Assembly: GCA_011033025.1 (NCBI GenBank)
Contig: WFMF01000003.1
Location: forward strand, 310,001-374,000
DNA from: Beroe forskalii
Lineage: Eukaryota > Ctenophora > Nuda > Beroida > Beroidae
DNA: 64,000 nucleotides
Reading direction: 5' to 3'
The translations under genes and the position numbers were made by a program. The first letter of the stretch is position 1, and every line of letters begins with the position of its first letter. This document shows, piece by piece, positions 5,160 through 56,816 of the stretch. The notes under the pieces were generated by a model. That model was not told where the DNA came from and ran no database searches. It worked only from the letters and a program-made list of their open reading frames with translations.

Positions 5160-5184
5160 TGCAGGCTTTTTGTTTACAGGGTGC

Positions 5185-7776: not shown

Positions 7777-7821
7777 TGAAGTGTCCTGAGATGAAATGTC
7801 GTGAGATGAGATGTCGCCCAC
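7777..7821 (-). repeat. 45-nt fragment of the telomere-carrying element
   Basis: This segment is the exact reverse complement of 16092-16136 over 45 nt. The words are gagatgaaatgtcgtgagat and atgtcgccca. It lacks the telomeric core and the opposite end, so it is a fragment or a relative of that element, not a full copy. Confidence 0.85.
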
Positions 7822-8311
7822 TCTTCTAAAGTTATCTTAGGTCCAATATTTTTCCTGTACATTTCCTTTTCCAAGCACAATGCACATTTTATCATTTTTT
7901 GTTATCAGTGCAACCTATTTAATCTATATTGTTATAATATGATTTATTTTGGAATAATCTTATCTATTTTCTCGCTAGACTATGTTCTCACTCTTCGTTT
8001 TTTAGGGGAGGGACGGACCAACTTAATTTTTGTAACTTTTTACAGTAACCCGCTTATTTTTGGAGGGGTTTCAAAGATTTTGGTCAACATTGCTTTTGGC
8101 CCAAATTTCTTATGCCTATTTGGTACGTAGGGTAAGGACAGAGGCCTATCAGCTTTTAACTTTTCAAGGTAAATTCAAGGTTCAATAAGTACCTTCCTAT
8201 AATATTTATCTACACGTACTGGAGATTGGAATAAATTAGGTACACAACAGGGGTAAATCTGATTGTGAGTGTATGGTGTTCATACTCATAGCCCGATAGC
8301 ATGTTAGTACA

Positions 8312-9510
8312 GCGACCTCCCTGAGTGAGTGACTGTCTGATTTAGTTTTTGTTGTGTACATTTACCTGATTAAAGTGTAACTATAGGTAAACAAATATGA
8401 AATTTAAAGACACAGAGCCGTGTTCATCCTTTGATCGAATCACTGCATCTTTGTACTGTGCATTGTACCTACCTAGATAAAAATTAATGTCCTGTCTGCG
8501 GAAGCGGGGCGGTACATGGTAGGCTTTGTCAAGCTCTATAATCCGAATCTGAACCTTGCTTGCTTGGTCCCGGGGCCCGGGCACGGGGGTCGCTCAGTTT
8601 GGTCTGATCCGAGTTTCATCATACTCATTAGCTCATTGAGTTGTAGTGTATACAAAACAAATATTTCCTCCATAATCAATAATGAGGATGGAGACTGGAG
8701 ATAGTGGCTGACAAGCTAAATTCAAGGTTCGATATCAAGTACTTACCTATTATAAAGCTATAAAGCAATAACTCTTTTATATTTTCTCGTTCTGGAGATT
8801 GAAATAAATTTCAGAACAGGGGTAGATCAGCTGGCTGAGTGTGAGTGTATGGTGTGGATGTACTTACACAGTTACACACATATTATATAGAATTATATAC
8901 TTAACTTTAGGTGATCAAATTAAGTGTCGTCCCCTGTTAATCGGAAGCATGCATGCAGAAACCTTAGCCTGCAGGGATTGCATACGATAGTACGATAACT
9001 GAGGCCTGCATATATTATACACTTAGAAAAGGCATGCATGTGATACTTCGTCTTGCATTATACGAATGCAATGAGTCAGAATGATTTCGTGACATCTAAT
9101 CCATAAGAAAAAGCATGCGTATGTTATGAAGGGTCGCAAAGAGAAAGTATGCACGTATTATAGCGTCCGGCATAGGAGTGGAGTAAGCTTAACTTCGTGT
9201 TTACTCCCTCATATCAAAAAGCATGCATCTGTTGTACCGGATCGCAGATATACATGTGAATGATACCACAAAAAGCATGCATACGATATTTTAGGCCTGC
9301 GCATACACAAAGAAAAAGCATGCATGAATTATTTCCTCCTGCATAGGGATGGAGTTGGCACGACTACTCCATAACAAAAAGCATGCATCTGTTGTACGAT
9401 ATTGCAAGTGTAGGTCAATGTTGCAAAGAAAAACATGCATACGATAATTCAGGCCCGCACACCCACTAGGAAAAGGCATGCATGTGTTACCTCCTCTTGC
9501 ATTGGGGTGG
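8312..9510 (-). repeat. Right arm of the 1.2-kb inverted repeat
   Basis: Reverse complement of 5185-6381 with scattered substitutions and small indels. It reaches further outward than the left arm: a gttgccatatggcca segment near 9515 has no counterpart at the left end. Confidence 0.85.
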
Positions 9511-10495: not shown

Positions 10496-10733
10496 GCATC
10501 AGGATTTGCCGCGCCATGAATCATTCATATCTTGAATATGAATTATGATGGAAAATATTTGCTCTCAATGGACATTTCGCGAGCGAAGCGAGCGGTCCAC
10601 AAAAAGTATAAAAATTTGATTTGGTGGGAAAAAATGTGGTGAGTACCGGGAAGAAAAATACTTTTGAAAGGTAAGGTCTGGAGTAAAAAGTGGACAACAG
10701 TTTGTATAAAATAGGCATTCAGATAAAAGGGTC
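10496..10733. other. Spacer, no gene seen
   Basis: Includes gcgagcgaagcgagcg near 10579, a short reiterated word. Otherwise unremarkable. Confidence 0.5.
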
Positions 10734-11472
10734 ACAAGAGTTGTGAATTTTGTCATATGGATCCATTGGGACCATCATGTCCAATGGACGTCCATTGGAC
10801 ATCCAATGGACATCCATTGAAGATGATGTCCATCGGTAAAAATGTCCAATGGTGTTCAATGGATCCGATGGATCCATTGGATCCATTTTTGATGTTCAAT
10901 GGACATGATGTTCAATAGATCCAATGGATGTTCAATGGATCCAATGGATGTTCAATGGATCCATTGTGTCCGTTGGATTCAGTGGATCCATTGTGTCCAT
11001 TGAACACCATTGGACGTGTCCATTGGATCCAAAGGATCCATTTTGCCCATTACACACAATGGATCCATTGGACACTTGCACTATAGATCCAATGGATTTA
11101 TTGGATGCAATGGATCCAATGGACTCAATGTGCAATGGATCCAATGGACAAATTGGACATTTCCAATGGTGTTCAATGGACACAATGGATCCATTGGATC
11201 CAATGAACACAACAGATCATTGAACGACAATACCAGACTGGTGTCCATCTACCAAAACATGTTTGGTGAATGACAATGTGTTCATTAGAGATCCACTCAG
11301 ATGGATCCATTGAACATCCCTTGGATCCATTGAACATGTCCATTGAACATCAAAGATGGATCCAATGGATATATTGGATCCATTGAACACCATTGGACAA
11401 TTTTACTGATGATGGACATGATGGATCCAATGGATCCATTGGACAAAATTCATAACTCTTGTGACCCTTTTA
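10734..11472. mobile_element. Foldback unit with CCAATGGATCC-word body, TA-flanked
   Basis: The ends are inverted: AAAGGGTCACAAGAGTTGTG near 10736 matches the complement ending near 11470, continuing through gaattttgtc on both sides. Both ends are bordered by TA. This is compatible with a TA target duplication, but TA is self-complementary so it is weak evidence. Nearly all the 739 bp between is permutations of ccattggatcc and ccaatggatgttcaatgg in both orientations. Apparent frames on both strands are word repeats. No coding capacity. Confidence 0.75.
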
Positions 11473-12244
11473 CTGACATATCAATTGGAACCAAAAATCA
11501 TTGGTCTGAAGTCAAAAGTTCATCTAATATTTTGCCTCAAAATTCAAATAGACACATCAAGTGGCACCAGAAACTAGGTAAAATTGTCAGAGAAGGCTTA
11601 CAAGGAAATGAATTAAATTTTACATAAATCCAGGTTCATATTAGCTGGGAAAGTGGACCATCTTGCCTCAAATAGGCATGCAAAGTGGCACCAAAAAATT
11701 AGTAAACTTTTCTGTGAAAACTTACAGTAGACTAGATTGAAAATGACATAAAATAAATGTTTACATTGGGCAAGAAATTGGGCAAGAAATTGGGCAATGC
11801 TTTGGCACCTCAAATATACATATCAAGTGCCACCAAAAACTAAGTAAACTAGGTAAGGGTAACGAAACAGTTACATTAAACTAGATTTACAATGACAATG
11901 GTATTAAATATATATGTAAATACATGTTTATAATTGTGGAGTATAAAGTGGGCATACTTTGCCTCAAATAGACAACAAAAAACTCTATAAAATTTCTAGC
12001 AAAGCTTACAATAAACATGAATGAATGAATGAATATATTTTTTACAGCACAATTACAATAGGTATACATTTTTCAATACTTTTTATATAAAAACATACAA
12101 TAAACTTGATTGGAAAATAAAGAGAACACAAGCTAATGTTGTGCAGAATGAAGTGAGCTATATTTTGACTCAGACAAATCAAGTGACATCAAAAACTACA
12201 TAAAATTTCCAGTGAAAGTTTACAATAATGCAGTTTGAAAATAA
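11473..12244 (+). repeat. Degenerate ~115-bp tandem array, left part
   Basis: Diverged copies of a unit with the order cattgggcaagaaattgggc, cctcaaatagacatatcaag, tggcaccaaaaactaggtaa, ttacattaaactagattgaa. The same array, in the same orientation, continues at 17084-18095. The DNA between is two inserted foldback elements whose target duplications lie within one array unit. Old and AT-rich; not coding. Confidence 0.8.
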
Positions 12245-12252
12245 GAAATTCC
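12245..12252 (+). repeat. 8-bp target duplication GAAATTCC, left copy
   Basis: GAAATTCC lies directly left of the GGC start of the element at 12253, and is repeated exactly at 13965-13972. Confidence 0.85.
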
Positions 12253-13964
12253 GGCAAAATGGTACCACAGGAACACGACCAAAATTAAGCTCCATTAGCC
12301 TCCATTAGCCTCCATGGAGGCTGAGTGGAGGCTGAGTGGAGCCTAAGTGGAGGCTAATTTCAAAAATTAGCCTCCATGGAGGCTAATGGAGGCATGAGGC
12401 TAATTTTTGAAGAATAGCCTCCACTATGGAGGCTAATTAGCCTCCACTAGCCTCCATTAGCCTCCACTAGCATCCACTCAGGCTCCACTCAGCCTCCATG
12501 GAGGCTAAAATTTTGGTTTAGCCTCCACTAGCCTCCACTTAAGAATTAGCCTCCATTAGCCTCCACGGAAATTTAAAAATGCATTTTTTGGATTCTATGG
12601 AAGCTGTTTTGACAGTGCTAGTGGAGGCTATAGCCTCCAAATGGAGGCTAAAATCATGAAGAAACACAGATAATATGCTAGCCTCCACAAAATTAGATTT
12701 ATGTCAGTTTTGTACAAAAAGAGTGCATTTTGTAACATAGACCAAAGTTTCTAACCCAGCTAGTATTAGGTACCACTCAGCCTCCACTAGAATCCACTCA
12801 ACCTCTACTAGGCTCCACTCAGCCTCCACTAGGCTCCACTCAGCCTCCACTAGGCTCCACTCAGCCTCCACTATGCTCCACTCAGCCTCCACTAGGCTCT
12901 ATTCAGCCTCCACTAGCCTCTACGCAGCCTCCACTCAGCCTCCACTAGCCTCCACTCAGCCTCCACGCAGCCTCCACTCAGCCTCCACTAGGCTCCACTC
13001 AGCCTCCACTAGGCTCCACTAGCCTCCACTAGGCTCCACTAGCCTCCACCAGGCTCCACTAGCCTTCAATAGCCTCCATTAGCCTCCACTAGGCTCCACT
13101 AGGCTAGTGGAGGTTAGTGGAGCCTAATGGAGGCTGAGTGGAGCCTAGTGGAGGCTGAGTGGAGCCTAATAGAGGTAAGAGGCTATTGGAGCCTAGTGGA
13201 GGCTAGTGGAGCCTTATGGAGGCTAGTGGAGCCTAGTGGAGCCTAGTGGAGCCAAGTGGAGGCTAGTGGAGCCTAGTGGAGCCTAGTGGAGGCTAGTGGA
13301 GGCTGAGTGGAGGCTAGTGGAGCCTAGAGGAGGCTGAGTGGAGGCTAGTGGAGGCTGAGTGGAGGCTAGTGGAGGCTGAGTGGAGCCTAGTGGAGGCTGA
13401 GTGGAGCCTAGTGGAGGCTGAGTGGAGCCTAGTGGAGGCTGATTGGGGCCTAGTGGAGGCTGAGTGTAGGATAGTTGGAGCTGTCTAAAAGTTTGAAGCT
13501 ATATATTGTTTTTCACATTTTTGCACATAAATCACCATTTTCAGCAAGAAATTTTGTTTTTGGAGGCTAATTGATTTAGGCTCCACTCAGCCTCCACTCA
13601 GCCTCCATTAGCCTCCATATTAAAGCTTTAGCCTCCACAAAAATGTTATATTTCAGTTTCCGTGGAGGCTAATGGAGGCTAATTCTTCAGTGGAGGCTAG
13701 TGGAGGCTAAACCAAAATTTTAGCCTCCATGGAGGCTGAGTGGAGCCTGAGTGGAGGCTAGTGGAGGCTAATGGAGGCTAGTGGAGGCTAATTAGCCTCC
13801 ATAGTGGAGGCTATTTTTCAAAAATTAGCCTCATGCCTCCATTAGCCTCCATGGAGGCTAATTTTTGAAATTAGCCTCCACTTAGGCTCCACTCAGCCTC
13901 CATGGAGGCTAATGGAGGCTAATGGAGCCTAATTTTTGTCGTGTTCCTGTGGTACCATTTTGCC
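12253..13964. mobile_element. Foldback element E1, gcctccactag lexicon, 8-bp TSD
   Basis: This 1712-bp element starts with GGCAAAATGGTACCACAGGA and ends with its exact reverse complement. The first 27 bp are perfectly inverted, and the arms then stay largely complementary to a centre near 13100. The body is almost wholly gcctccactag, gcctccactcag and their complements. Exact 8-bp direct repeats GAAATTCC flank it. There is no open frame beyond word repeats, so it is non-autonomous. The flanking array reads continuously across the removed element. Architecture is as in Foldback and TU elements; superfamily not assigned. Confidence 0.92.
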
Positions 13965-13972
13965 GAAATTCC
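13965..13972 (+). repeat. 8-bp target duplication GAAATTCC, right copy
   Basis: Exact match to 12245-12252, directly after the terminal GCC of element E1. Confidence 0.85.
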
Positions 13973-13991
13973 ATGTCCATATTGTGGGGTA

Positions 13992-13999
13992 TAAATTAG
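13992..13999 (+). repeat. 8-bp target duplication TAAATTAG, left copy
   Basis: Directly left of element E2 and repeated exactly at 17076-17083. Only 19 bp separate it from the right target duplication of E1. Confidence 0.85.
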
Positions 14000-14587
14000 G
14001 GCTAAAAAATGGGTGGACTCAACTCCGCGGCGGACCCGCTGCGGACCCGGTGGACCCGCAGCGGGTCCGCCGCGGACTCCACTAAAGTCCACCATAAATT
14101 TTTTTTGGTGGACTTTGGTGGACCCGCAGCGGACTTTTCGAAACTCCGCCGCGGAGTAGTGGATCCGCTGCGGGTCCGCTCGGGCTCCGCCGCGCACTGG
14201 TGGACAGTCCACCGAAAAAGTCCACCAAAAAAGTCCACCGTGGAGTAAAATAATTGTGGAGGTTAGTCCGCCGCGGAGTCAGTGGACTCCACTGGCGGAG
14301 TCCACTGGCGGAGTTGAGTCCACCAGTGGAGTCCACTGGCGGACTCCACTGGTGGACTCCACCAGCAGATTGACTCCACTGGCGGAGTTCATTGGTGGAG
14401 TCCACCAGTAGACTCCACTGGCGGAATCCGCCATTATGAATATTATAAGTTATGCTTTTATTTTTGGTTTTTGGAAAGGAGTGCCATGTGTACACAAAGC
14501 TGTCTCAGATTCGGTCGATATTTGAAAAACCAACTCGGGAGTAATGAGCATGTGCGTTTAAAACCATTTGCGTTTAAGAATAAAATG

Positions 14588-14627
14588 GACGGACGTTGCC
14601 CGTCTATTTCTTCTGACTGGGTGGCTA
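14588..14627 (+). repeat. 40-nt segment shared with 42775-42815
   Basis: This stretch matches the reverse complement of 42775-42815 with one substitution and one indel; the words include cgtctatttcttctgactgg. Both copies can read CPSISSDW or APSISSDW in one frame. It may be a remnant of a shared older element or exon; the surroundings differ. Confidence 0.7.
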
Positions 14628-14648
14628 ACAATACAATTAGAACTAGAT

Positions 14649-14935
14649 GGCTACGAGCGAATAATACTGCGGGAGACTCCTGGGGAGTACTGCGAGAGTA
14701 CCCCAGGAGTCCTACGGGAGTACCCCAGGTGTGCCCCGGGAGTCCGACGTGAGTACCCTGGGAGTCCTACGGGAGTACCCCGGGAGTCCTACGGGAGTAC
14801 CACGGGTGTGCCCCGGGAGTCCGACGTGAGTACCCTGGGAGTCCTACGGGAGTACCCCAGGAATTCTATGGGAGTACCCAGGAGTCCTACGGGACTACCC
14901 AGGAGTCCTAGGGGCCATCCAGAAATGAGCTCATC
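14649..14935 (+). repeat. gggagtcctacgggagtacc array (copy 1)
   Basis: Direct repeats of a 20-22 bp word gggagtcctacgggagtacc, about 12 copies. It begins with GGCTACGAGCGAATAATACT, nearly the same as the start of the array at 25653. No inverted counterpart of that start is present at the right end, so this copy looks truncated. Confidence 0.85.
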
Positions 14936-15718
14936 AAAAATCGGCCTTTTTTGAACGTACATACATACATACAACCTCATCACTACCCCATCATTTAGAA
15001 AAGATATATAAATATCCCAACCTCATCTCATCATTTAAAGATTTCTGTTACGTCACTCATTCAATATGAAGGGCTGGAGTGACGTCACTACTGCAATTCA
15101 AGTTCAATTATCTAACTTAGATGTTGTTAATTTTGAATTAAAGAGTCCTCTTCTAGCTTTTATCTTAATAATATGTGTTCTTACTGATTATAACGCAAGT
15201 AAATTGAGTTCTCCCTGTTCTCATTTGGTTCTCATTCTTTTCACTATGAAAATTTACTATGGAAAGCAGGAAAGGCCCATTGTGGCTGTTATGAATTGCC
15301 CACCGGGCGAAAAATTTGTATGGACACTCCTTGGGACTATTATATAAACACGTTCCAACTGATTTTGAGTCATTTTACTCAATATTAAATTTTTGTGACA
15401 AAATGGGCGTGGCCCCGCAACCCCCAAAGTCCAAAGTCAGAAAGTCGCAAAAACTTTGCAAAAGTTATCTCCTCAATGCCCTCTACAACCCTGAACAAGT
15501 TTTGGCATTTGGAGTCATTTATCACCCTTCAAAATCCCCGTTCTCATTTGGTTCTCATCCTTTCGGCAAATGACCACATTGCAAAATCGCCGACTCGGCG
15601 CCAATCAGCGCCGGCTAGGCGCCGATGGGAAATCGGCAACTTTTCATCGGCGGTCGTCGGCGCTGATCGGTGCTGATCAGCGCCGATATGAAAACTGCAT
15701 TAAGAATCGAAAAATTAA

Positions 15719-15880
15719 GGCAGATGTTGACTTTGCAATCGGCGCCGATCAGCGCTGATCAGCGCCGACGACCGCCGATGAGAATTTTAAAATTTCCGAT
15801 CGGCGCTGATCAGCGCTGATCGGCGGTGAATCGGCGCTGATCAGCGCTGATCGGCGCCGATTGCAAAGTCAACATCTGCC
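15719..15880. mobile_element. Nested mini-foldback E6 (162 bp)
   Basis: Starts GGCAGATGTTGACTTTGCAA and ends with its inverse. The flanks are AAAAATTAA on both sides, a 9-bp direct repeat; slippage in the A run could have lengthened an 8-bp duplication. The end differs from that of E5 (24958) by only four bases in 20, and both continue into tcggcgccgatc, so this is a short relative of E5. It sits in the left part of E3. Confidence 0.8.
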
Positions 15881-16081
15881 AAAAATTAATTATTTTTCGT
15901 CGGCGCTGCGGCTGATCAGCGCCGATCGACGCCGATGGGAAAATCATGGGAAAATCTGAAATAAAATGCACCAGACAGCTTCCGTTATACAGGTGTTTTA
16001 ATCGGCGGCAGATTGGCGCTGTCGGCACCGATCGGGGGCTGGCCGGCGCTGATCAGCGCCGACGACCGCCGATGAAAAGTT

Positions 16082-16089
16082 GCCGATTT
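16082..16089 (+). repeat. 8-bp target duplication GCCGATTT, left copy
   Basis: Repeated at 16305-16312. The opposite arm of E3 (around 15628-15650, read in reverse) shows the same sequence uninterrupted with a single GCCGATTT, so the empty site is visible. Confidence 0.9.
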
Positions 16090-16304
16090 GGGTGGGCGAC
16101 ATCTCATCTCACGACATTTCATCTCAGGACACTTCATCTCCGTGTCCTGACCCTAACCATAACCCTTACCCAAACCCTAACCCTGACCCTAACCCAAACA
16201 CTAACCCTAACCCTAACCCTAACCCTAACCTTTGCGTAGAGCTGACATATTGCGAGGTAAAGTGTCGTGAGATGAAATGTCGTGAGATGAATTGTCCGTT
16301 CCCC
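16090..16304. mobile_element. Telomere-repeat-carrying insertion E4 (215 bp)
   Basis: A 215-bp unit with imperfect inverted ends: GGGTGGGCGACATCTCATCT on the left, and on the right the inverse of GGGGAACGGACAATTCATCT. Both continue into cacgacatttcatctc. Exact target duplications GCCGATTT flank it. The core (16147-16232) is telomeric TAACCC repeats. The E3 arm it interrupts has an uninterrupted mirror copy, so the insertion is directly demonstrated. A 45-nt fragment of the same unit lies at 7777-7821. No protein is encoded. Confidence 0.92.
16147..16232 (+). repeat. Interstitial telomeric repeats (TAACCC)n
   Basis: Positions 16202-16230 are a perfect run of CTAACC hexamers. Upstream, 16147-16201 has degenerate hexamers (caaaccctaaccctgaccc). 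The complementary strand is TTAGGG, the telomere repeat of most non-arthropod metazoans. Its position in the loop of a small transposed hairpin element makes chromosome-end fusion unlikely. Confidence 0.95.
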
Positions 16305-17083
16305 GCCGATTTCCCATCGGCGCCGATCAGCGCCGATCGGCGGTACAGCCGATCGGCGCCTAGCCGGCGCTGATCGGCGCCGATCAGCGCCGGACCGGCG
16401 CCAATCGGCGCCGAGTCGGCGATTTTGCAATGTGGTCATTTGCCATCCTTTCCACCACCTTTCCATTTCCAAATCCTCACCAAATAAGCGAATGCACTTA
16501 TTTTACAAGGAGTGGTTGATGTCAAAATTTCGCCCGTAAGTGATGAGCTCATCATTTTGCAAACCTACATACATACTTATACCTCATCAGTACCTCATCA
16601 TTTCCAAAACATACATTAACATACATACCTAGTGCACCAGTGAGCTCCGCCGGTGGACTCCCGACTCCGCCGGTGGACTCCACCTGTGGACTCCGCAGGT
16701 GGACTTCACTTGTGTACTCCGCTGGTGGACTCCACCTGTGGACTCCGCAGGTGGACCAAAGTCCGCTGGTGGAGTCCACCTGCGGAGTCCACCTGTGGAC
16801 AAAAACTCCGCGGTGGACTCCAATCCGCGGCGGACTTTTTTCCCTGGTGGACTTTTTTGGTGGACTTTTCTGGCGGACTGTCCACCAGTGCGCGGCGGAG
16901 CCCGAGCGGACCCGCAGCGGATCCACTACTCCGCGGCGGAGTTTTAAAAAGTCCGCTGCGGGTCCACCAAAAAATTTTTATGGTGGACTTTAGTGGAGTC
17001 CGCGGCGGACCCGCAGCGGGTCCACTGGGTCCGCAGCGGGTCCGCCGCGGAGTTAAGTCCACCCATTTTTTAGCCTAAATTAG

Positions 17084-18095
17084 GTGATTTTTTGTCTCAA
17101 CAATGAACAAATACTAGATGAAATTTTCATTAAAACTTTCCATATTGGGCATGAAAATGGGGCAAGATTTTGCCTGATCAAATAAGCAAATAGGCATGCC
17201 AAGTGGCACCAAAAACTAATTAGTAACTTTTCATTGAAAATTTTCAATGGGTAAACTAGATTGAAATTGACATAAAATACATGTTCATATTGGGCAAAAA
17301 ATTGGGCAATGCTTGGCTCAAGTAGACATATCAACTGGCACCAAAAACTAGGTAAACTAGGTAAAGGAAAGAATCACATAAAACTAGTCTATTCTTTGTA
17401 GAACAAATACAGACTATGCATGGAGCTGTTGGAGAGTTTTGTGGCTTGACTTCTTCTTTGTGAAAGTCGAGCCACAAAACTCTCCTACAACTCCATCCAT
17501 AGTCTTTGATGGGATCCATGAAAGAGTGCCTTTATCAATGATATAAGGAGTATAGGCAGATCCAAATAAAGCATAATGAGACACCAAAAATGATATGGCA
17601 TAATGAAAGCTAACACTGAGCCACATGGACTTTAAAAAAGTGAAAACATGGTTGAAATGAACATTAAATACCTACATGTTTATATTGGGCATTAAAATTA
17701 GGCAAATGATTTGCCTCAAATAGGCATGTCAAGTGGCACCAAAAACTATGTGAAGTGTTTGCTGAAAACTTGCATTAAAATAGATTAGAAATAACATGAA
17801 ATATTGGGAAATATTGGGAAATACAAAATGGCAAATATTTTGCCTCAAATCGACAACAAAAACTAGGTTAAATTTTCAGTATAAATTAGGTCACAAATTG
17901 AAAATGACAGAAAATACATTTTGTGGAGAATGAATTGAGCAATATTTTACCTCAGATATAGACATATCAAATGGCACCAAAAAATCAAAAAAGCAAAAGC
18001 TAGATAAAAGTTTAAATGAAAGCTTACATGAGGCATGAATAGAATAGAATAGAAAGATTTTGCCATGAGGCAACTCAAATAGACAAAACATTCAT
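17084..18095 (+). repeat. Degenerate ~115-bp tandem array, right part
   Basis: Continues the array of 11473-12244 in the same orientation and with the same word order (cattgggc, ttgcctcaaatagacatatc, ggcaccaaaaactaggtaaa, attgaaaatgacataaaat). About eight diverged units. One unit near 17400-17520 contains an inverted pair around gttgtaggagagttttgtgg. Not coding. Confidence 0.8.
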
Positions 18096-19489
18096 TCATC
18101 ATATTTCATCATTAGCATGTACCCTAACTAGGGTACTCAAAATAAAGTCATGAAGTGTTCATGACACTGTTAACAGTAAAGGGACGGTTGTATGGCAAAA
18201 ATGCCCGCACACACTTAAACCGTTATGTGGAGAAGCCATTTTTAAAGCTAGAGTTCTGGTTTTTTCAGTAGCTTAGGTTTTGCCTTATATCTTGTATACG
18301 ACAAAATTAAAATCATTCCTGTGGATTAATTAGTTTCTTAATGAGAGCTAATTTAATTGAGGATGGTTTAAAAAAGGTACCCGGAATCTGCTGTATGGCA
18401 AATTTGCCCGACAGGGCTAGGATGATGTAACTCAATTATCCTGTGAGCTATGGAATAGAGGTGTTATGTAAACAAATTTAGCATTCCGTCTAATTGCTCT
18501 TGAAAGAATTTGCGGTAATCAAGGGTGTGTAGTGTTTTATATGTTTGTGTGTAGAGAAAGATATCTCTTATTACACAAAATGTAAGAGTGTTAGACAATG
18601 GCCAATGCCTGTGCGCTGAATGTGCCTGCAGCTCTACGGATAAATCCTAAAAATTGCAAAGTTTCAATCAACTGTAAAGTGCGACTTAAAATTGAGAACA
18701 TAAATTATTTTTCATAACTATTACTTTGGGCATACTTTAAGGTTACACATTGGTGAACCGAATTATGGGCAGACATAATTTTGGGCGCTCGAAGGTATGA
18801 TTGAAGAAATCAGAAAATTGGGCAAACTTTCTTGAATTTTCCATTTTGGAAATTTCTACTTTTTTAGAGGTTCATAATTATCACTTATCATGAATGTCCA
18901 TTAGTCAATGTCCTCTAACTGCTTTATTGTAAGGATCGTAGAATTGAATTGTGTTTAGATAGTTAAAGGGGTAATAGTATATAATGAAAAAATTCAGCAG
19001 TTATTAATAGATTAATGTTCGGACAAAATTTTGCTTTTGGGTGGAAATAATTATGGGCGTGAGGTTTTCCTGATCCAGCGACCTGGTTTTTATAACGAGA
19101 GGTATAAATATCGTAACATTGACTCATTGATACCAGAAGGCGCCTAAAAGGCATGCTATGTCCGCCTAAGTATAAAATTCAAAATTTTAAGGTGAGTATT
19201 GCACAGTTCGTTGAAGTAGGAAATTAAGCATGGCATTTCGACTAGAGAATTAAGGAGTTCCTGTTGAAGTTTAACTAACTCAAGTCTCATATCTATGAAA
19301 ATTGAGTACCAATCAGACTCTTGTACCGGATTTTGTAATTAGGTACCTACAGACTCGTGTCAGGGACTCGCACAACACACCTTTAGAGCTGTAACGTAAC
19401 TCGTTTATTGTGTGACGGGATCATTCATCAGTCTCTTTTAGCAAAATTGTTTAAATCACTCGTAAAACATACACATGTTACAGATACGT
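18096..19489. other. Intergenic; no gene seen
   Basis: AT-rich. The word tgtatggcaaatttgcccg occurs near 18393 and, as a variant, near 18188. Its reverse complement appears at 21881 next to the ORF1-like gene. No supported frame, RNA or array. Confidence 0.5.
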
Positions 19490-20945
19490 GGAACATACTC
19501 GTGTGGCGAGCTCGTGTTACGCACAGCGCACTCGTGTTTAGTGCAACATACTCCTGTGGCGAGCTCGAGTTACACACTCGTGTAAAGTGTAACATACTCG
19601 TGTGGCGAGCTCGTGTTACACACTCGTGTTTAGTGCAACATACTCGTGTGGCGAGCTCGAGTTACACACTCGTGTAAAGTGTTACATACTCGTGTGGCGA
19701 GCTCGTGTTACGCACTCGTGTAAAGTGTAACATACTTGTGTGGCGAGCTCGTGTTACACACTCGTGTAAAGTGTAACATACTCGTGTGGCGAGCTCGTGT
19801 TACGCACTCGTGTAAAGTGTAACATACTTGTGTGGCGAGCTCGTGTTACACACTCGTGTAAAGTGTTACATACTCGTGAGGCGAGCTCGTGTTACGTACT
19901 CGTGTAAAGTGTAACATACTTGTGTGGCGAGCTCGTGTTACACACTCGTGTAAAGTGCAACATACTCGTGTGGCGAGCTCGTGTTACGTACTCGTGTTTA
20001 GTGTAACATACTCGTGTGGCGAGCTCGTGTTACGTACTCGTGTAAAGTGTTACATACTCGTGAGGCGAGCTCGTGTTACACACTCGTGTTACACACTCGT
20101 GTAAAGTGCAACATACTCGTGTGGCGAGCTCGTGTTACGTACTCGTGTTTAGTGTAACATACTCGTGTGGCGAGCTCGTGTTACACACTCGTGTTTAGTG
20201 CAACATACTCGTGTGGCGAGCTCGAGTTACACACTCGTGTTAAGTGCAACATACTCGTGTGGCGAGCTCGTGTTACGTACTCGTGTAAAGTGTAACATAC
20301 TTGTGTGGCGAGCTCGTGTTACACACTCGTGTAAAGTGCAACATACTCGTGTGGCGAGCTCGAGTTACACACTCGTGTTAAGTGCAACATACTCGTGTGG
20401 CGAGCTCGAGTTACACCCTCGTGTAAAGTGTAACATACTTGTGTGGCGAGCTCGTGTTACGCACTCGTGTAAAGTGTAACATACTCGTGTGGTGAGCTCG
20501 TGTTACGCACTCGTGTAAAGTGTAACATACTTGTGTGGCGAGCTCGTGTTACGTACTCGTGTAAAGTGTAACATACTTGTGTGGCGAGCTCGTGTTACAT
20601 ACTCGTGTAAAGTGCTACAAACTTGTGTGGCGAGCTCGTGTTTCATACTCGTGTAAAGTGCAACATACCTGTGTGGCGAGCTCGAGTTACGCACTCGTGT
20701 TAAGTGTAACATACTCATGTGGCAAGCTCGTGTTACGCACTCGTGTTAAGTGTAACATACTCGTTCGGCGAGCTCGTGTTACATACTCGTGTAAAGTGCA
20801 ACATACTTGTGTGGCGAGCTCGAGTTACGCACTCGTGTTAAGTGTAACATACTCATGTGGCAAGCTCGTGTTACGCACTCGTGTTAAGTGTAACATACTC
20901 GTGTGGCGAGCTCGTGTTACGCACTCGTGTTTTAACACTCGTGAT
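19490..20945 (+). repeat. 46-bp satellite-like array (cgagctcgtgttac)
   Basis: About 31 tandem copies of a 46-bp unit containing gtggcgagctcgtgttac, actcgtgtaaagtgtaacat and variants with gtttagtgcaac. Each unit centres on the palindrome cgagctcg, with acgag/ctcgt flanks, so units can form hairpins. Longer blocks recur (for example the segments ending near 20750 and 20900 are nearly identical), showing recent unequal exchange. Open frames of up to 138 codons arise only because frames persist across units. Confidence 0.95.
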
Positions 20946-21877
20946 TTTGCCACAGAACATAAGAACGTGAATAAAGGACTTGAGTTGTGGTAACGTATCA
21001 CAGACAGGTGTTATTAAGGACTCGTAATAGTCGTTTATATATGTGGCGAGCCACTAGAACAAAAACGTAGTCCAAGACTCGTGTTACGAAATCGAACGCC
21101 TTTATTAGAGCAGATTCGTGCAGCAGATTTAGGTAAAGGAGTTACAGCCTCTATTAGTAAGACTAAGTATGTAACGACTTACGGGGTACTGGTAGGTACC
21201 AATTAGGTAAGTAGGTAGATATCTATAGTACCTAGTATAGTGCAGTGGATAGACCATAAACCAAACTCAACCTATGCCTCAGCCGCGGCCTACCCTACCA
21301 AATTATGGGGCTTAAAGAGCAGAAACCTTATGTTTAAAGTGTCAGCACGGATTCAATCAACTCATCACTGTATTACTGAATACTGTAATTAAAATTATTG
21401 ATTTGAATAAATTTGAATAAATGGAATCATACTTAAATCCTCGCTTAATATCCTTTTAAGCATTGAAACGTCACCTTACAGTGTATCTACTCCCGTCAGC
21501 TTCAGGAATCAAACCGGATATTGTGTAATATTTGTGTGTAAACTTTGTGTGTAGCATTTTACTACATTAGTGTGACTTGATTGAATGACACACAAAATTG
21601 ATTGTTTTTCTTTCAAGAGAAAGCGATCAAGGTGTGAAACATTACCGCAATCAAAAGAATTCGGGCTGTGACAGATCTAATTACGCGCCCACACATAGGA
21701 AATATATAGATTGAAGCTGATCGAATTAACTACAGAGTAAAGTGCAGAGGAGAACCACTGGTATAGTTTAGCCGATGTTTTTTCAAAAACTAATGAAAGC
21801 TGATTACAGATCCTTGTTGAGATTGAAATGGGTTTTTCAGAGATATAAATTATACCTTCGAAAGACATCGGGAAATT
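20946..21877. other. Intergenic; no gene seen
   Basis: Contains stray actcgtg words decaying from the array and otherwise AT-rich sequence. Confidence 0.5.
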
Positions 21878-22812
21878 GTAGGGCAAATTTGCCATACAGC
21901 CGTCGACTCTATATAACGTTCAGTCCACTTCGTGTTAACAGTTCCATTACGAATATAGTGTTTTTGATTTGGTTCTCTAGCCTTTCTTTTCTTCAGCTCC
22001 TCAACCAGACTCCTATGTTTAGTTCTCTGCTCCAAAGACCTGTCTGGGGACAAGAACACTGCACTATACCTTGCATTGTCTCTGAGTTTATGTGCCATAT
22101 GTAGGATCTGAGATACTACCAATGAGTTGGACAAACTCACTTTTACTGGCCGTGGTCCTTTCTCTGAAACCTTCCCTACCCGGCACACTTCCACTCTGGG
22201 CTTTTCTCCAATCACCTCCATGATGCCCATTATTTCTTCTTTGAGCTCCTGCTGATCATCCTCTGCAAGCCCAAACACCATGATGTTACGGCTTCGGTTT
22301 TCTTCTTCAACAACTTTTTTCACAACTGATACAATATTACCACTTGTTACATTTGCCTTACCAGTCTGCCCTGACATAACCACAGAACTGTAAGTTTTAA
22401 ATTCCTCCTTCACTGTTTCCTGGACTGATGACTTCACTGCAGATGTAACAGAATGCAACTGCTCCTCTTTGAGTTCCAGCAACTGCCGCTGGAGCTGCAC
22501 CACATTCTCCTGAGACTCTATCAGCTTCTTTTGCAGCACAACCATCTCAGCAGAGGTTTGGCTGAGAGATCTCTTCAGGGACTCATCATGCTTCACCTGC
22601 ATATCATGATTTTCCTCCTCCATCCTTCGAACAGTACGGTGCATATCTGATATATGAACAAAAGCTTGACACAGCATTGCTGCAAGTTTATCCTTTTCAA
22701 TTGCTTGACAATGGTCTACAGTCAGATCCTTAGTATTTGGACAATGTAGAACTTTCAGTTTTCTCTCTATCCACTTATCCCACATGTCCACGGTATCTCC
22801 ATCATGACCCAT
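21850..22812 (-). CDS. LINE ORF1-like RNA-binding protein
   Basis: A 320-codon open frame from the methionine at 22812-22810 (reading MGHDGDTVDMWDKW). An earlier in-frame methionine at 22866 adds 18 hydrophobic residues and is less likely. Residues about 60-137 are a heptad-rich coiled coil. Residues about 176-255 resemble the L1 ORF1-type RRM (RNIMVFGLAED, GEKPRVEVCRVG, RPVKVSLSN). The C-terminal signature is SPDRSLEQR...HYIRNGTV at 254-292. The last ~28 residues read into flanking DNA, so the natural stop appears lost. Such proteins bind RNA and assist retrotransposition. No reverse transcriptase lies nearby. The frame is otherwise intact. A second, diverged copy is at 36780. Confidence 0.8.
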   Translation of the reverse strand: MGHDGDTVDMWDKWIERKLKVLHCPNTKDLTVDHCQAIEKDKLAAMLCQAFVHISDMHRTVRRMEEENHDMQVKHDESLKRSLSQTSAEMVVLQKKLIESQENVVQLQRQLLELKEEQLHSVTSAVKSSVQETVKEEFKTYSSVVMSGQTGKANVTSGNIVSVVKKVVEEENRSRNIMVFGLAEDDQQELKEEIMGIMEVIGEKPRVEVCRVGKVSEKGPRPVKVSLSNSLVVSQILHMAHKLRDNARYSAVFLSPDRSLEQRTKHRSLVEELKKRKAREPNQKHYIRNGTVNTKWTERYIESTAVWQICPTISRCLSKV

Positions 22813-23712
22813 TGCAACAAGAAAATACGTCCAAATAAGAACTGTGGCACTTATTTCAACAATCAACTGCTGCAGTTCAAAATAATCAACATATGCTCAT
22901 ACCAGAGAGTGTATGGTCATGCATAAACAAAACATTTGTTCAAACTACAGCTTTGTTTGTGCAGCATAAGTTTGTGCATTGTATATAGCTTGAAAAGAAA
23001 AATCACAATTATGGACAGTATTTTGCCTCAAAACAGTGCCTTAAATTAGCTTAAACTCATTTCATATAGAAGGATCATTAAAAATATTCATCTAACATAA
23101 AGTACAACTAATCAATAAAGGGATCCAAGGATTGAAACTTGGAAAGGAAAACCTGTGAATGATAACAGATTATAAGATTATCTTACAGGACCAGAACAAA
23201 CCAAAAAACTTCTTTTAATAATAGAATAGGGTGATATAGACGAAACTCAGACAAACAAACAGGTAAAAGTCTGAAACCTTTCACTTTTATAATTTAAAAG
23301 TATGGAAACAATGGGCATTCATCACCCAGCTAAACTTTAATTAGGCATTAGGGGAAGGAGACTTCGTTAGAGAAACTAGGAAGCAAGAAGGAGACGTGTA
23401 TGGAGTGATTTGTTGGTACTTCATATGAACCAGCTATCCAATACTGACATAATTGGCCAGTTTCTGGATGTAAGCTGAGAAAATATCGTAGGATGTTACC
23501 CTACCCTCGCGCGCGGCGCAACGTTCCACATTTGGACGTCACTTTGCAACCTCGCCCGGGGTAGGGGGAAACTGGCCAGATTTTGCAGCAGAAAGTGCTG
23601 CACAATCTGATTGGTTGAGCGCGTACTACGTCATCATCATGAGTTAACGTATTGCGCTACGAAACGACGCGCGCGCACCAATATTGCAAAAAATTGTATG
23701 GTAGGGCAAATT
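21878..23712. repeat. 12-bp direct repeats GTAGGGCAAATT bracketing the ORF1-like gene
   Basis: GTAGGGCAAATT occurs at 21878-21889 and 23701-23712. The 1.8 kb between holds the whole recognisable ORF1-like region and its CpG-rich upstream end. Retrotransposed copies are usually flanked by duplications of this size. No poly-A or poly-T tract is visible at the 21890 side, and related words occur near 18.2-18.4 kb, so this is suggestive only. Confidence 0.4.
23490..23700 (-). promoter_or_regulatory. CpG-rich segment upstream of the ORF1-like gene
   Basis: This stretch has a cluster of CpG dinucleotides (cgcgcgcggcgcaacg, gacgcgcgcgc), an ATTGG (inverted CCAAT) and tacgtcatcatc. The surroundings are AT-rich. 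It lies 0.7-0.9 kb upstream of the ORF1-like start on the minus strand. LINE 5' regions often carry CpG-rich internal promoters. Position and composition are the only evidence. The stretch 22867-23489 between is AT-rich with nothing I can name. Confidence 0.3.
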
Positions 23713-23929
23713 GAGTGAAATTTATTGAAAAAACTTTTGTCAAATGTTACATCATTGGAAAGATCTCATTCTCAGCTATAAATTAAAAAAGAATCGTGGA
23801 AAAAGATGCTTTGGATCGGGAGTTATGGGCGTTTTAGTGAAATTTTGTTGTGAAATCGTATCTCTTCTTGCTCGAATAATCGAGCGCTATTGTTCCAGAA
23901 CTTTCTCACCTCGTGTTTGCTAGATGTTA
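23713..23929. other. Intergenic; no gene seen
   Basis: AT-rich; no repeat or frame supported. Confidence 0.4.
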
Positions 23930-24935
23930 AATGCTTGCTTACGGTGTGTGATTGTTGCCGGTCATGAGCAATTCAGTCATGATTTAATCTTCCAGTCATG
24001 ATTTTCATCTTTCTTTTGGGCTGTTCCTTGTGTGGGCGTTGCCGTTCTTCTTCTTTCCTCACTTCATGTCGAGTGTTTCGAATCCTTCAGTGATTTACAG
24101 CCATAGTTATAATCTTTTTCTGGGCTTTTGCTTGTGAGGGTGTTGCCGGTCTCAGATCTTTATTCTTTTTTCATTTCATGTCGATCAGTGTTTTGAAACT
24201 TTCGCTCTTTCAGTTATCTTCAGGCATAATTCTGATAGATTAGAATTATGCCTGAAAATAACTTATGCCTGAAGGTAGCTTGCTTTTGCAATTAATTTGA
24301 GAATGTGATGGCGTTGCCGGTCTCAGATCTTTATTCTTTCTTCATAGTATAGAGAATATCATGTCGAGTGTTCTGAATCTTTTGCTCTTCCAGCTTTCCA
24401 GCATTTTATTTATTAGTTATTTTCAGTAATATTTTTAATCATTCTTCTGGCCGGCTTTTGCTAATTGTGAGGGTTTTGCCGGTCTCAGATCTATATTCTT
24501 TCTTCATTTTAAGTCGAGTCTTTTGAATCTTTCAGTAATTTTCAGTCATGATTTTGATCTTTCGATTATAATAACATTAACCTGTTGTTGGTGATGGCGT
24601 TGACATTCTTAGATCTTTAGGCATTCTTTCTTCATGCTTTCATGCCATGTCGAGTGTTTTGAATCTTTCAGTCATTTACAGCCATAATTTTAATTTTTTG
24701 AGCTGTTGTTAAATGTGAGGGCTTTGCCGGTCAGAGATCAATATATTCTTCCTTCATTGTATGTCTTGTAATTTGAATCATTCACTCTTTCAGTCACAAT
24801 TTTAATCTTTCTTTTGAGTTTTTGCTTGTGACTGTGAGGGCGTTGCCCGTCTCAGATCTTAATTCTTTGTTTCATGTGATGTGATTTATGAAGCTGTCAG
24901 CTTGTCAGTAATTTTCTGTCATAATTTTAGACTTT
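23930..24935 (+). repeat. Degenerate ~130-160 bp tandem array
   Basis: Seven or so diverged units share gttgccggtctcagatcttt, attctttcttcat, gtcgagtgttttgaatcttt and cagtcatttacagccataat. The gttgccggtc word recurs near 23956, 24146, 24313, 24475, 24597, 24727 and 24842. Directly abuts the target duplication of element E5. Confidence 0.8.
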
Positions 24936-24949
24936 CTTGAAGTACCTAT

Positions 24950-24957
24950 TTCGATAA
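24950..24957 (+). repeat. 8-bp target duplication TTCGATAA, left copy
   Basis: Directly before the GGC start of E5 and repeated exactly at 27676-27683. Confidence 0.88.
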
Positions 24958-25652
24958 GGCAGATGGGCACCTTGCAATCGGCGCCGATCAGCGCTGATCA
25001 GCGCCGACCCACCGCCGATCGGCGCTGATCGGCGCTGATCAGCGATTGATCAGCGCTGATCAGCGACACCGCCGATCAGCGCTGATCGGCGCTGATCAGC
25101 GCCGATGGAAAAAATTAAAAATTTCATCGGCGGTCGTCGGCGCTGATCAGCGCTGATCAGCGCCGATCAGCGCTGATCAGCGCCGATCGGCGATCAATCA
25201 GCGCTGATCGGCGAAATTGGCCGCTGATCAGCGCTGATCGGCGCTGATCAGCGCCTACCAAAAAACCTGCATAAGAGCCTTAGAAAACTCCATCGGCGCT
25301 GATCAGCGCTGATCAGCGCCGATCGCAAACTTACTAAATTCGCATTGATATGGACGTGTGGGTATGTTTCCCTTAAAAATATAATTCTGGCTGGCCCTGG
25401 GTGACGTTGAGAGTCCGATAAATTGATCAAAGTGGATGGAATTGGATCAAAGAGGATGGGCACGCGGCAGGTCGTCAGGAAGGAAGGAGGTTATAAAGTT
25501 ATAAGAGGACAGCCTTCCTATCTGCTTTGGGTGCATCTCAACACCCATACACCCATGAGAGCCGCCCCTGGTCCCAGCTGGTTGATGTGGTAGTCCAACC
25601 GCTTACACCTGTGAAAGACACATCCCTCCTGCCCAATCCCTAGGACCGTAAC

Positions 25653-26233
25653 GGTCATACGAGCGAATTATTGCGGGAGACTCCCCGGAGTCCTTCGGGA
25701 GTACTCCGAGAGTCCCCTGGGAGTCCTACGGGAGTACCCCAGGAGTCCTACGGGAGTACTCCAGGAGTCCTACGGGAGTACCCCAGGAGTCCTACGGGAG
25801 TACTCCGGGAGTACTCCGAGAGTCCCCCGGGGGTCCTACGGGAGTAGCCCAGGAGTCCTACGGGAGTCCCCAGGAGTCCTACGGGAGTCCCCCGGGAGTC
25901 CTACGGGAGTCCTACGGGAGTACCCCAGGAGTCCTACGGGAGTACTCCGGGAGTACTCCGAGAGTCCCCGGGAGTCCTACGGGAGTACTCCGAGAGTCCC
26001 CGGGAGTCCTACGGGAGTACTCCGAGAGTCCCCGGGAGTACCCCGAAAGTCCTACGGGAATACCCCCGGGGGTCCGACGGGAGTTCTACGGGAGTACCAC
26101 GGGAGTCCCCCGGGAGTCCTACGGTAGAACCGCGGGAGTCCTACAGGAGTCCCCCGGGAGTACTACGGGAGTACCCCGGGAGTACTACGGGAGTACCCCG
26201 GGAGTCCTACGGGAGTAATTCGCTCGTATGGCC
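25653..26233. repeat. gggagtcctacgggagtac block with inverted ends
   Basis: Begins GGTCATACGAGCGAATTATT and ends with the inverse of GGCCATACGAGCGAATTACT, so the array is bracketed by ~18-bp inverted ends. The body is about 27 copies of gggagtcctac, gggagtaccccagga and gggagtactccg. It is the same family as 14649-14935. I found no clean target duplication; the right flank is another expanded array that could have obscured it. Confidence 0.8.
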
Positions 26234-26935
26234 ACACAGTAACACCGTTACGACACAGTATAACACCGCTATGACATAGTAACACCGTTACGACACAGTA
26301 ACACCGTGATTACGACGCAGTAACACCGTTACGCCACAGTAACACCGTTACGACACACTCTCAGTAACGTCGGTCGTCGTTACAAGTACGATTCAGTAAC
26401 AGTGTAACGACTCGGTAACATTGTTACGACACAATAACAGCGGTGCGACACACTAACACTGTTATAAAGCCAAAATAACGCACTTACGACAGAAAATGCC
26501 ATTTTACTTTTAAGACCCGTTGATAAATCGCTTTTGATGGGTAACAAGTAACTAAGTAACAATATTACTGTGTTGTAACGGTGTTACTGTGTCGTAACGA
26601 CGATACTTTCGTAACGTTGTTACTGTGTCGTAACGGCTTTACTGTTTCGTAACAACGTTACTGAGTCGTAACGACGATACTGAGTCGTAACGGCGATACT
26701 GAGTCGTAACGACGATACTGTATCATAACAGCAATACAGTGTCGTCACTGTGACGTAGTCGTAACGGTGTTTCTGCTTTACTGTGTCGTAACGGTGACGT
26801 ACTGTGCCTAATTACAGTAATTGTAAACAGTGTTACTACGCCGTAAATGTGTCGTTACGGTGTTTCTGTGTCATAACGGAGCGTCTGTGCCGTTACTTCG
26901 CATCTCTGTCGTAACAACGTTGCGGTCTATAAGTA
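26234..26935. repeat. Inverted array of acagtaacaccgttacgac words
   Basis: The left half (26234-26470) runs cacagtaacaccgttacgac; the right half (26570-26935) runs its complement gtcgtaacggtgttactgtg. The two halves face each other across ~100 bp of AT-rich centre near 26520. GTAAC and GTTAC core words are themselves complementary. Not coding. Confidence 0.85.
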
Positions 26936-27683
26936 AAGTAGTAAAGGTATAATACGTCTATCCTGAGCCGAGTTATGAACGAAATACGTTCGATTATGAC
27001 CTCAGGACTTGGAATATTTTTGCTCCCAATGTTCTCAACGTCCAATTTACGAAATTTGTTTAAGTAAGCTCATAATCGGCCCGGCGCTACGGGTCTGTAT
27101 TTATTTAGACTGTTGAATTTTGTTGTTGACAATTGATATGGTTGCTGATGTTGTGATAAACCTAGGTGCGAGGATTTGCCATTAAACGTTTCCCAGGGCC
27201 AGCCGGAATTATATTTTTAAGGGAAACATACCCACACGTCCATATCAATGCGAATTTAGTAAGTTTGCGATCGGCGCTGATCGGCGCTGATCAGCGCTGA
27301 TCAGCGCCGATGGAGTTTTTTAAGGCTCTTATGCAGGTGTTTAGGTAGGCGCTGATCAGCGCCGATCAGCGCTGATCAGCGGCCAATTTCGCCGATCAGC
27401 GCTGATTGATCGCCGATCGGCGCTGATCAGCGCTGATCGGCGCTGATCAGCGCTGATCAGCGCCGACGACCGCCGATGAAAATTTTAATTTTTTCCATCG
27501 GCGCTGATCAGCGCCGATCAGCGCTGATCGGCGGTGTCGCTGATCAGCGCTGATCAATCGCTGATCAGCGCCGATCAGCGCCGATCAGCGCTGATCAGCG
27601 CCGATCAGCGCCGATCGGCGGTGGGTCGGCGCTGATCAGCGCTGATCGGCGCCGATTGCAAGGTGCCCATGTGCCTTCGATAA

Positions 27684-28154: not shown

Positions 28155-28922
28155 TTAACCCTGCTAAATCCGACCTTTTTGCCTGCATCGAGATCCCGAC
28201 CCGAGGTGGAAACAACCTCGCCCTATCTAGACACAATAATTAATTTACGAACAGATTTGCAGACTTCTTCTCGGCGAATGCGCAATTCCGTTTTTATTAA
28301 TTGTTTCCCCTTCCAGGCCTTCTAATTTGCTTGATGATAAATGTGTAAGCGGGAATTACCAAAATGTGTGTAATTCTATTAGATAAACAATGTATTATGT
28401 AGGTCAGCACAGTGTACACTGGATAGAATTCTGTGAAACTCTAAACTTCCATTACACAGTTTACATTCACTGTAGGTACCTATAACATCTTAGTATCTTA
28501 ATACTTTAATATGACACAAGTTATGATAATAAATTATGTGCATAGGAAGGAATATCATGATCGACGTTTTTCAGGAAAATTTCGTCAAAACTATCAATTC
28601 GTCACTGAAAGTTCGGTTTCTGTATAGGTACCTACTTTTTGTACGATGTCACGAATTACATTATGCTGAATTAAGAAATATAACCTACTTATAATCGTCA
28701 AATTCAAATCATTTATAGGTACCTATATAACTACGAAGTGATGCCATCTTAGATCAAAATGAAGAGTTGCAAAATTCTGAGATAATTTTGTTCATCCATT
28801 CTTCAATTAAGCAATTGTATACGTTCTGTCTCTCGTGTTTTTGTTCATTATTTTGCTCTTAAGACGCTGTTCATCTCGAAAACACGGTAGGTATCTATTA
28901 TTTTTCTTCATTGATATAGTGC

Positions 28923-30110
28923 CATGCCCCTTTTCTCACTATTTCCACCAGTGTCACGCACCTGTTCTCACTATTCCCACCAGTGTCACGTACCTGTTCA
29001 CACAAGTTCCACCAGTGTCACGCACCTGTTCACACTTGTCCACCAGTGTCACTCACCTGTTCTCACTATTCCCACCAGTGTCACGCACCTGTTCACACTA
29101 TAAGTTCCACCAGTGTCACGCACCTGTTCACACTAGTTCCACCAGTGTCACGCACCTGTTCACACTAGTCTCACCAGTGTCACGCACCTGTTCACACTTG
29201 TTCCACCAGTGTCACGCACCTGTTCACACTAGTTCCACCAGTGTCACGCACCTGTTCACACTTGTTCCACCAGTGTCACGCACCTGTTCACACTAGTTCC
29301 ACCAGTGTCACGCACCTGTTCACACTAGTTCCACCAGTGTCACGCACCTGTTCACACTTGTTCCACCAGTGTCACGCACCTGTTCACACTAGTTCCACCA
29401 GTGTCACGCACCTGTTCACACTTGTCCCACCAGTGTCACGCACCTGTTCACACTAGTTCCACCAGTGTCACGCACCTGTTCACACTAGTTCCACCAGTGT
29501 CACTCACCTGTTCATACTAGTTCCACCAGTGTCACTCACCTGTTCTCACTATTCCCACCAGTGTCACTCACCTGTTCACACTAGTTCCACCAGTGTCACG
29601 CACCTGTTCATACTAGTTCCACCAGTGTCACTCACCTGTTCTCACTAGTCTCACCAGTGTCACGCACCTGTTCACACTAGTTCCACCAGTGTCACGCACC
29701 TGTTCACACTAGTTCCACCAGTGTCACGCACCTGTTCACACTTGTTCCACCAGTGTCACGCACCTGTTCACACTAGTTCCACCAGTGTCACGCACCTGTT
29801 CACACTAGTTCCACCAGTGTCACGCACCTGTTCACACTTGTTCCACCAGTGTCACGCACCTGTTCACACTAGTTCCACCAGTGTCACGCACCTGTTCACA
29901 CTTGTCCCACCAGTGTCACTCACCTGTTCACACTAGTTCCACCAGTGTCACGCACCTGTTCACACTAGTTCCACCAGTGTCACGCACCTGTTCACACTAG
30001 TCTCACCAGTGTCACGCACCTGTTCACACTTGTCCCACCAGTGTCACGCACCTGTTCACACTAGTTCCACCAGTGTCACGCACCTGTTCACACTAGTTCC
30101 ACCAGTGTCC
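28923..30110 (+). repeat. 32-bp minisatellite (ttccaccagtgtcacgcacc)
   Basis: About 37 tandem copies of a 32-bp unit: ccaccagtgtcacgcacctg then ttcacactagtt or variants (ttgtt, tctc, attcc). The block 29241-29456 is repeated at 29721-29936, a 480-bp offset or exactly 15 units, showing segmental duplication within the array. No unique spacers exist, so it is not CRISPR. Open frames appear in pieces because 32 is not a multiple of three. Confidence 0.95.
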
Positions 30111-56800: not shown

Positions 56801-56816
56801 CTTGCCAACCCCATTG

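Follow-up and report, generated by a model that had tools for sequence, protein, structure and literature searches.

Foldback-like elements with GG tips and mostly tip-linked arm words in a contig of the ctenophore Beroe forskalii

Introduction

Long repetitive foldback arms are found on transposons of many organisms, but few have been tested for function. A stretch of 64,000 nucleotides from the ctenophore Beroe forskalii (contig WFMF01000003.1 of assembly GCA_011033025.1, positions 310,001 to 374,000; hereafter the window, numbered from its first base) holds six transposon-like elements, E1 to E6, whose inverted arms are built from different short repeated sequences, here called words. The question posed by this locus is how the words relate to the ends of the elements that carry them. 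An initial annotation had proposed that a common transposase recognises shared ends while the arms are overwritten by the expansion of arbitrary inverted words. We find instead that the word mostly accompanies the tip, and propose, with a probability of roughly 0.6, that E1-E6 represent several non-autonomous cut-and-paste families of one superfamily, their words linked to the tips and probably forming arrays of binding sites. If words and tips change together genome-wide, the arms could document transposase binding specificity, and families of a single genome could then be compared to decide between the binding-site model and free-running repeat expansion.

Results

Six elements flanked by target duplications

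E1 (12253-13964) begins with the tip GGCAAAATGGTACCACAGG and is flanked by the exact 8-bp duplication GAAATTCC adjoining its left tip (12245-12252), with the right copy at 13965-13972; two-ended elements are given here without strand. Its outer arms consist of TAGTGGAGGC-type words in both orientations and its inner part of head-to-head direct arrays (12774-13480). E2 (14000-17075; tip GGCTAAAAAATGGGTGGACT) lies between exact 8-bp copies of TAAATTAG at 13992-13999 and 17076-17083. Its arms of GTGGACTCC/CCGCGG words extend over about 14000-14430 and 16645-17075, enclosing a loop that contains E3 and half of a further element, of class C, described below. E4 (24958-27675; GGCAGATGGGCACCTTGCAA) has the right tip GGCACATG with one mismatch, carries arms of GATCAGCGC words and is flanked by the exact 8-bp duplication TTCGATAA (24950-24957 and 27676-27683). 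Together with E3 and E6 it forms class B.

E3 (15565-16444; GGCAAATGACCACATTGCAA) sits in the E2 loop between exact 8-bp copies of ATCCTTTC at 15557-15564 and 16445-16452, and the first 30 bases are identical between its two ends. Two smaller elements lie within it. E6 (15719-15880) is a 162-bp class B element with the GATCAGCGC word, bounded by the 9-bp duplication AAAAATTAA at 15710-15718 and 15881-15889. E5 (16090-16304), of 215 bp, has GGG tips and two to three direct 15-bp words per end (CGACATTTCATCTCA type), and is bounded by the exact 8-bp duplication GCCGATTT at 16082-16089 and 16305-16312. Its core, at 16146-16230, consists of (CCCTAA)n, the telomeric repeat of animals. E5 interrupts the right arm of E3; the left arm is uninterrupted and has a single copy of GCCGATTT, its reverse complement reading GTTGCCGATTTCCC, the unoccupied E5 site. 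The insertion of E5 is secure because the left arm of E3 keeps this site.

Exact direct repeats thus adjoin the tips in all six elements, 8 bp long in E1-E5 and 9 bp long in E6, and random pairs of 8-mers from the window agree by chance with a frequency of 5.25e-5. Comparing the flanks over 33x33 offsets, the tip-adjacent pair was the sole 8-bp match in each of E1-E4; E5 gave six such matches and E6 two. Seven other inverted repeats, with tips shifted by up to 12 bp, yielded no repeat of at least 8 bp. The best among them was a 7-bp repeat at 26234-26806 that lies within that array's own word, and the set includes the class C element at 25653-26233 and the E7 region, taken at 885-1194 where the true tip is at 1208.

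Automated scans for inverted pairs proved noisier than direct reading of tips and flanks. An unfiltered scan returned 676 pairs, those shown being mostly palindromes and array words. One filtered scan kept one of 12 pairs, E3, and a second kept 11 of 80, comprising E1, E3, E4 and eight array-internal pairs, its filters having removed E2, E5 and E6. A scan for GGC pairs found 33 with an 8-bp repeat, and seven of these matched at 24/25 or more positions, four being E1-E4 and the other three lying inside arrays and carrying the palindrome TCCATGGA; this tip-pair scan also retrieved E6 (GGC, 9 bp) and E5 (GGG, 8 bp). We take E1-E6 to be real transposition products. The six elements named in the initial annotation, four with GGC tips and 8-bp repeats, a fifth with GGG and 8 bp, and a sixth with 9 bp, are all upheld: the first four by the flank test, the fifth also by its unoccupied site in E3, and the sixth by an exact repeat.

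Likeness of the tips

The same annotation had called three of the five tips that it listed clearly related, with another fitting GGCARATG. Clear relatedness holds for E3, E4 and E6, whose tips are alike even with GGC left out (shuffle p ≤0.00075, lower with GGC), and is marginal for E1 and E3 (p 0.035 without GGC, 0.0015 with it). It is not borne out for E2, which compared with E1, E3, E4 and E6 gives p 0.12-0.47 without GGC and 0.009-0.054 with it. The E5 tip had no significant likeness to the others once its first three bases were left out (p of at least 0.097). A single tip common to all the elements was rejected, the shuffles giving it no support beyond GG(C).

Arm words and the tips they stand behind

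Within an end class the arms are built alike. The class B elements E3, E4 and E6 share the GATCAGCGC word with an arm 6-mer cosine of 0.64-0.94, GGAGTCCTACG is common to the class C copies (cosine 0.82) and a 15-bp word to the members of the E5 family (0.84), against a cosine of at most 0.15 across end classes. In all but one of the four end classes with at least two members, the word accompanies the tip. Over ten ends, tip likeness predicts arm likeness with r 0.83 (0/20,000 permutations), a test that takes in E7, a relative of E5 and the class C ends, all found during this analysis. For the five GGC elements of the initial annotation alone the Mantel r is 0.88 (3/120 permutations), and with E7 added it is 0.75 (10/720).

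A search of the window for tip copies identified E7 (780-1208, minus strand), a one-ended element with the tip GGCTATATACTGGGTGAACT at 1208 that matches the E2 tip at 16/20 bases and words of the type TTCATATGAA/TGAACT. A match this good arises in 10/100 shuffled windows. The tip borders the outer edge of the TTCATATGAA word array (about 780-1188, the left limit being approximate) and faces outward, and because of this position we consider E7 a credible candidate. No left end was found for E7, and the 8 bp adjoining its tip occur once in the window, with no partner copy. The difference between the E2 and E7 tips, GGACT against GAACT, recurs throughout the arms: TGGACT and TGAACT occur 23 and 1 times in both E2 arms together, and 0 and 25 times in the E7 arm, counts that are non-independent, as the words are repeated, and that concern a motif picked after the tips had been seen.

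These observations bear on the claim that shared ends stand before unrelated arms. As a general rule it is not supported, since E3, E4 and E6, whose ends alone are strongly shared among E1-E6, have one word, and other words stand behind other ends; it does describe the E2/E7 and E1/E3 pairs, and words can therefore diverge behind a related tip. Overall the association leans towards each word having its own end, an outcome that forms part of what the initial annotation had itself counted against its proposal.

Class C is represented by an element in the E4 loop (25653-26233), with ends GG(T/C)CATACGAGCGAATTA, GGAGTCCTACG words and no target duplication in the flank test, and by a half element in the E2 loop (14649-14914, plus strand; GGCTACGAGCGAATAATAC) with the same word. 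Immediately next to the former, and likewise in the E4 loop, a 19-bp ACACAGTAACACCGTTACG word forms inverted arrays at 26234-26806. The relative of E5 is a one-ended copy at 7770-7823 (minus strand) that has the 15-bp word of E5 and the tip GAG rather than GGG.

Self-complementary arms and changes by word units

Within the outer arms of E1, and within each arm of E2 and E4, the reverse complement of 45-65% of the 8-mers is found in that arm too, against 2-7% in shuffles. The value is 52% for the E7 array (shuffles 3%) and, in E3, 16 and 39% for the two arms (shuffles 1 and 5%); for E6 as a whole, with both arms together, it reaches 77%. No self-complementarity was found in the inner arrays of E1 or in the arms of the inverted repeats at 48-57 kb and 5-9.5 kb (0-5%). 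Self-complementary arms may be a variant of the known foldback kind; a literature search aimed at self-complementary word arms recognised none, which is no proof of absence.

Between its two arms E4 has 98.0% identity and just two indels, of 30 and 10 bp, each an exact duplication of words. Thus, in E4 at least, arms gain or lose words in situ. Comparison of the E1 arms gave 23 indels, with one clear 11-bp word unit, and of the E2 arms 13, with one clear 10-bp word unit; the remaining indels are not simple units or fall in poorly aligned stretches, and some may be artefacts of aligning the inner regions.

Other repeat structures occur in the window. At 10719-11476 a self-complementary array of TCCAATGGA/GGATCC words (53% of 8-mers, shuffles 11%) has inverted ends of about 35 bp (TCAGATAAAAGGGTCACAAG type), with no duplication of at least 6 bp near its tips. 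A large foldback at 48007-56816 has 1.3-kb arms of GGGCTCCCCC words that are about 95% identical, again with no target duplication of at least 6 bp near the tips. The inverted repeat at 5184-9510 has ATGCATGC-rich arms of 1.2 kb that are 98.9% identical, with no tandem array listed in them and no target duplication of at least 6 bp near the tips. Two long tandem arrays were also noted, one of 46/138-bp units at 19488-20931 (CACTCGTGTAAAGTG...) and one with 37 copies of a 32-bp unit at 28918-30109.

Coding capacity and searches for relatives

A listing of the window's open reading frames (ORFs) of at least 70 amino acids, from which low-complexity ones were left out, has 121 entries, and 97 of these were scanned against Pfam, the other 24 lying in repeat arrays or overlapping others. 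Four families were matched, by one ORF each, and no Mutator, Merlin (DDE_Tnp_IS1595) or P transposase was among them, as would be expected if the copies are non-autonomous. Five ORFs of the E2 loop and one of the thinly covered E4 loop had no Pfam match. The sole match noticed above its curated cut-off was a DDE_Tnp_4 transposase fragment at 55245-55649 on the minus strand (E 3.2e-10), inside the separate foldback at 48007-56816; a Protein Data Bank search with this ORF gave nothing meaningful.

Searches of bacterial, viral and phage collections identified no relatives. In viral contigs four DNA pattern scans gave no matches and a protein-based scan gave two pattern matches, neither confirmed. 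The tip pattern had no match in genome contigs, and 443 bases of E4 had none in a phage collection. The word pattern matched ten bacterial contigs at one palindromic site each, which we took as probably due to chance.

Elsewhere in the window, the open frames at 21853-22896 (minus) and 36618-37643 (plus) are coiled-coil-like and have the phrase EKPRxxVCRVG in common. Neither has a Pfam match above cut-off, and by resemblance they are perhaps first open frames of LINE retrotransposons. An Rfam tRNA match of 44.3 bits at 3789-3857 (minus), for which ARAGORN made no call, could be either a tRNA gene or a repeat derived from a tRNA.

Discussion

E1-E4 and E6 are foldback in architecture, and E5 is a small relative in layout, with a GG tip followed by short words in inverted order. 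Read as one superfamily, they have target duplications of 8 bp and sometimes 9 bp, and the families differ from one another in their tips and, for the most part, in their words. A transposase supplied by autonomous copies not seen here would cut at the GG tip and insert with an 8-9-bp stagger. The words would be repeated transposase-binding motifs that change together with the tip, and the arms could lengthen or shorten through slippage or unequal exchange of word units. Because the two arms of an element are alike, it is possible that pairing and conversion between them maintain this likeness.

Several observations weigh against this reading. The E2 and E7 tips are close, and their arms have a cosine of only 0.07; the E1 and E3 tips are moderately alike (score 5.0), and the arms are unrelated (0.01). 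E2 arms share some 6-mers with those of E1 and class C (0.14-0.15), whose tips are unrelated to that of E2. There are only about five end classes, one of them the single element E1, and in E1 and E2 the majority of indels between the arms do not correspond to simple word units. Word arrays without a duplication of at least 8 bp exist at 25653-26233, 10719-11476, 504-681, 26234-26806 and 48007-56816, and word arms are therefore not bound to visible insertion. Both the transposase and the binding function of the words are unseen.

The discordant pairs would be accommodated if one transposase read only the short tip and the arms were freely overwritten by arbitrary inverted words, as the initial annotation had it. 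Much of that proposal stands. The elements are inserted foldbacks with a GG(C/G) tip, one superfamily is plausible, all five GGC elements start alike with duplications of 8-9 bp, and the arms change at least partly by whole words. A parallel exists in Galileo, for which the passages concerned describe about 40 conserved terminal bp and family-specific arms (PMC3688188, PMC4168063). However, class B, class C and the E5 family each pair one end with one word, as reflected in the correlation over ten ends, and the words of E2 and E7 bear the base difference of their own tips, so they are not simply arbitrary. The arbitrariness of the words is the weakest part of the proposal, and we regard a transposase that reads the tip only as unlikely.

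The opposite view, that GG tips, 8-bp duplications and foldback arms arose separately in several unrelated superfamilies, such as a Mutator-like and a Merlin-like one, seems to us somewhat unlikely. It would explain why the E5 and class C tips have little or no likeness to E1-E4 beyond GG, and both named groups fit, with duplications of 8-11 bp given for Mutator (PMC6446971) and of 8 or 9 bp behind a terminal 5'-GG for Merlin (PMC8101967), in the portions of these sources that deal with them. Against this, E1, E2 and class B share exactly GGC and a near-equal duplication length, for which chance is about (1/64)^2 on a rough estimate that treats the three classes as independent. The self-complementary arms might also have grown as small elements of the E6 type inserted repeatedly into their own kind and the arms were then converted. 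E6 does lie within E3, an element of the same class, and insertions into one arm that became part of both have been described for Galileo in part of PMC4168063. Such a history should leave eroded tips inside the arms, yet none were found: allowing up to 3 mismatches, the class B tip is confined to the six known ends, and the E1, E2, E3 and E5 tips, with up to 5 mismatches, have no arm-internal copy. We consider this origin very unlikely.

Returning to several families within one superfamily, a stronger form can be put forward, although we think it improbable. Each arm would be a self-complementary array of the element's own tip-proximal binding motif. A mutation in the tip would rewrite the whole array, as between E2 and E7, so that tip, word and the DNA-binding domain of the transposase would co-evolve and arms would look unrelated between families of one superfamily.

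How do these elements compare with known systems? They fall within known foldback transposon kinds, and no gene was found in them. Long inverted arms with internal repeats are present in E1-E4 and in the short E6, and target duplications adjoin the tips of all six. The hAT elements have an 8-bp duplication and a CAG-type tip; the duplication length fits and the GGC and GGG tips do not, so hAT was set aside; just one CAG pair of high identity has an 8-bp repeat, and it lies within the E1 tip. The P superfamily, including Galileo, has a 7-bp duplication and a THAP-bearing P-type transposase, and was set aside on duplication length (8-9 bp here), the comparison being by description only; the 97 ORFs scanned also had no such domain, which proves nothing by itself. 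Sea-urchin TU elements have foldback arms and 8-bp duplications, an unconfirmed parallel drawn in the initial annotation.

In other respects Galileo is close. Its arms hold several transposase-binding sites behind the conserved end (PMC3688188), so that a conserved terminal segment is combined with family-specific, repeat-bearing arms, and arm growth is attributed to duplications, secondary insertions and the uptake of coding sequence (PMC4168063). Tetris of Drosophila virilis and Tm1 of root-knot nematodes are likewise foldback elements with 8-10-bp duplications and composite repeat arms (PMC4079207, PMC3169594). Comparing descriptions rather than sequences, Tetris copies also have no conserved open frames, and its repeat unit, unlike the words here, is TIR-220 (PMC4079207). 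In Tm1 the commonest duplication is 9 bp and one group encodes a putative transposase (PMC3169594). For each of these, as for the two groups below, the comparison is with the relevant passages of the papers cited.

Of the superfamilies, Mutator-like and Merlin-like are both plausible. All six elements have the terminal GG and 8-9-bp duplication of Merlin, with the one-ended E5 relative reading GA, and Merlin terminal inverted repeats (TIRs) also differ between families of one species (PMC8101967). In contrast, the Merlin TIRs described measure 24-462 bp, with tandem repeats (12 and 163 bp) mentioned for one family; the passages concerned mention no word arms (PMC8101967), and no IS1595-type transposase was among the 97 ORFs scanned. 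The Mutator-like Phantom/Muta group, in which PMC6446971 places Muta with Phantom, combines a duplication within 8-11 bp with a long TIR bearing short repeats, as found here. Fourteen Muta families of Aedes aegypti (Mutator-like elements) have 8-9-bp duplications, and ten of the twelve long-TIR families have subterminal tandem repeats of 9-15 bp (PMC5225508). They resemble the Beroe elements in having 8- or 9-bp duplications within one family, a terminal motif followed by subterminal repeats, and many non-autonomous copies with variable interiors (PMC5225508, PMC6446971). Muta1 has 145-bp TIRs with nine copies of a 12-bp tandem repeat, whereas several arms here are longer and their words occur in both orientations, a comparison by description and not by sequence. 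A single Muta-like transposase would be expected to leave both lengths, as with the 8-bp duplication of E4 and the 9-bp duplication of E6, whose tips are related.

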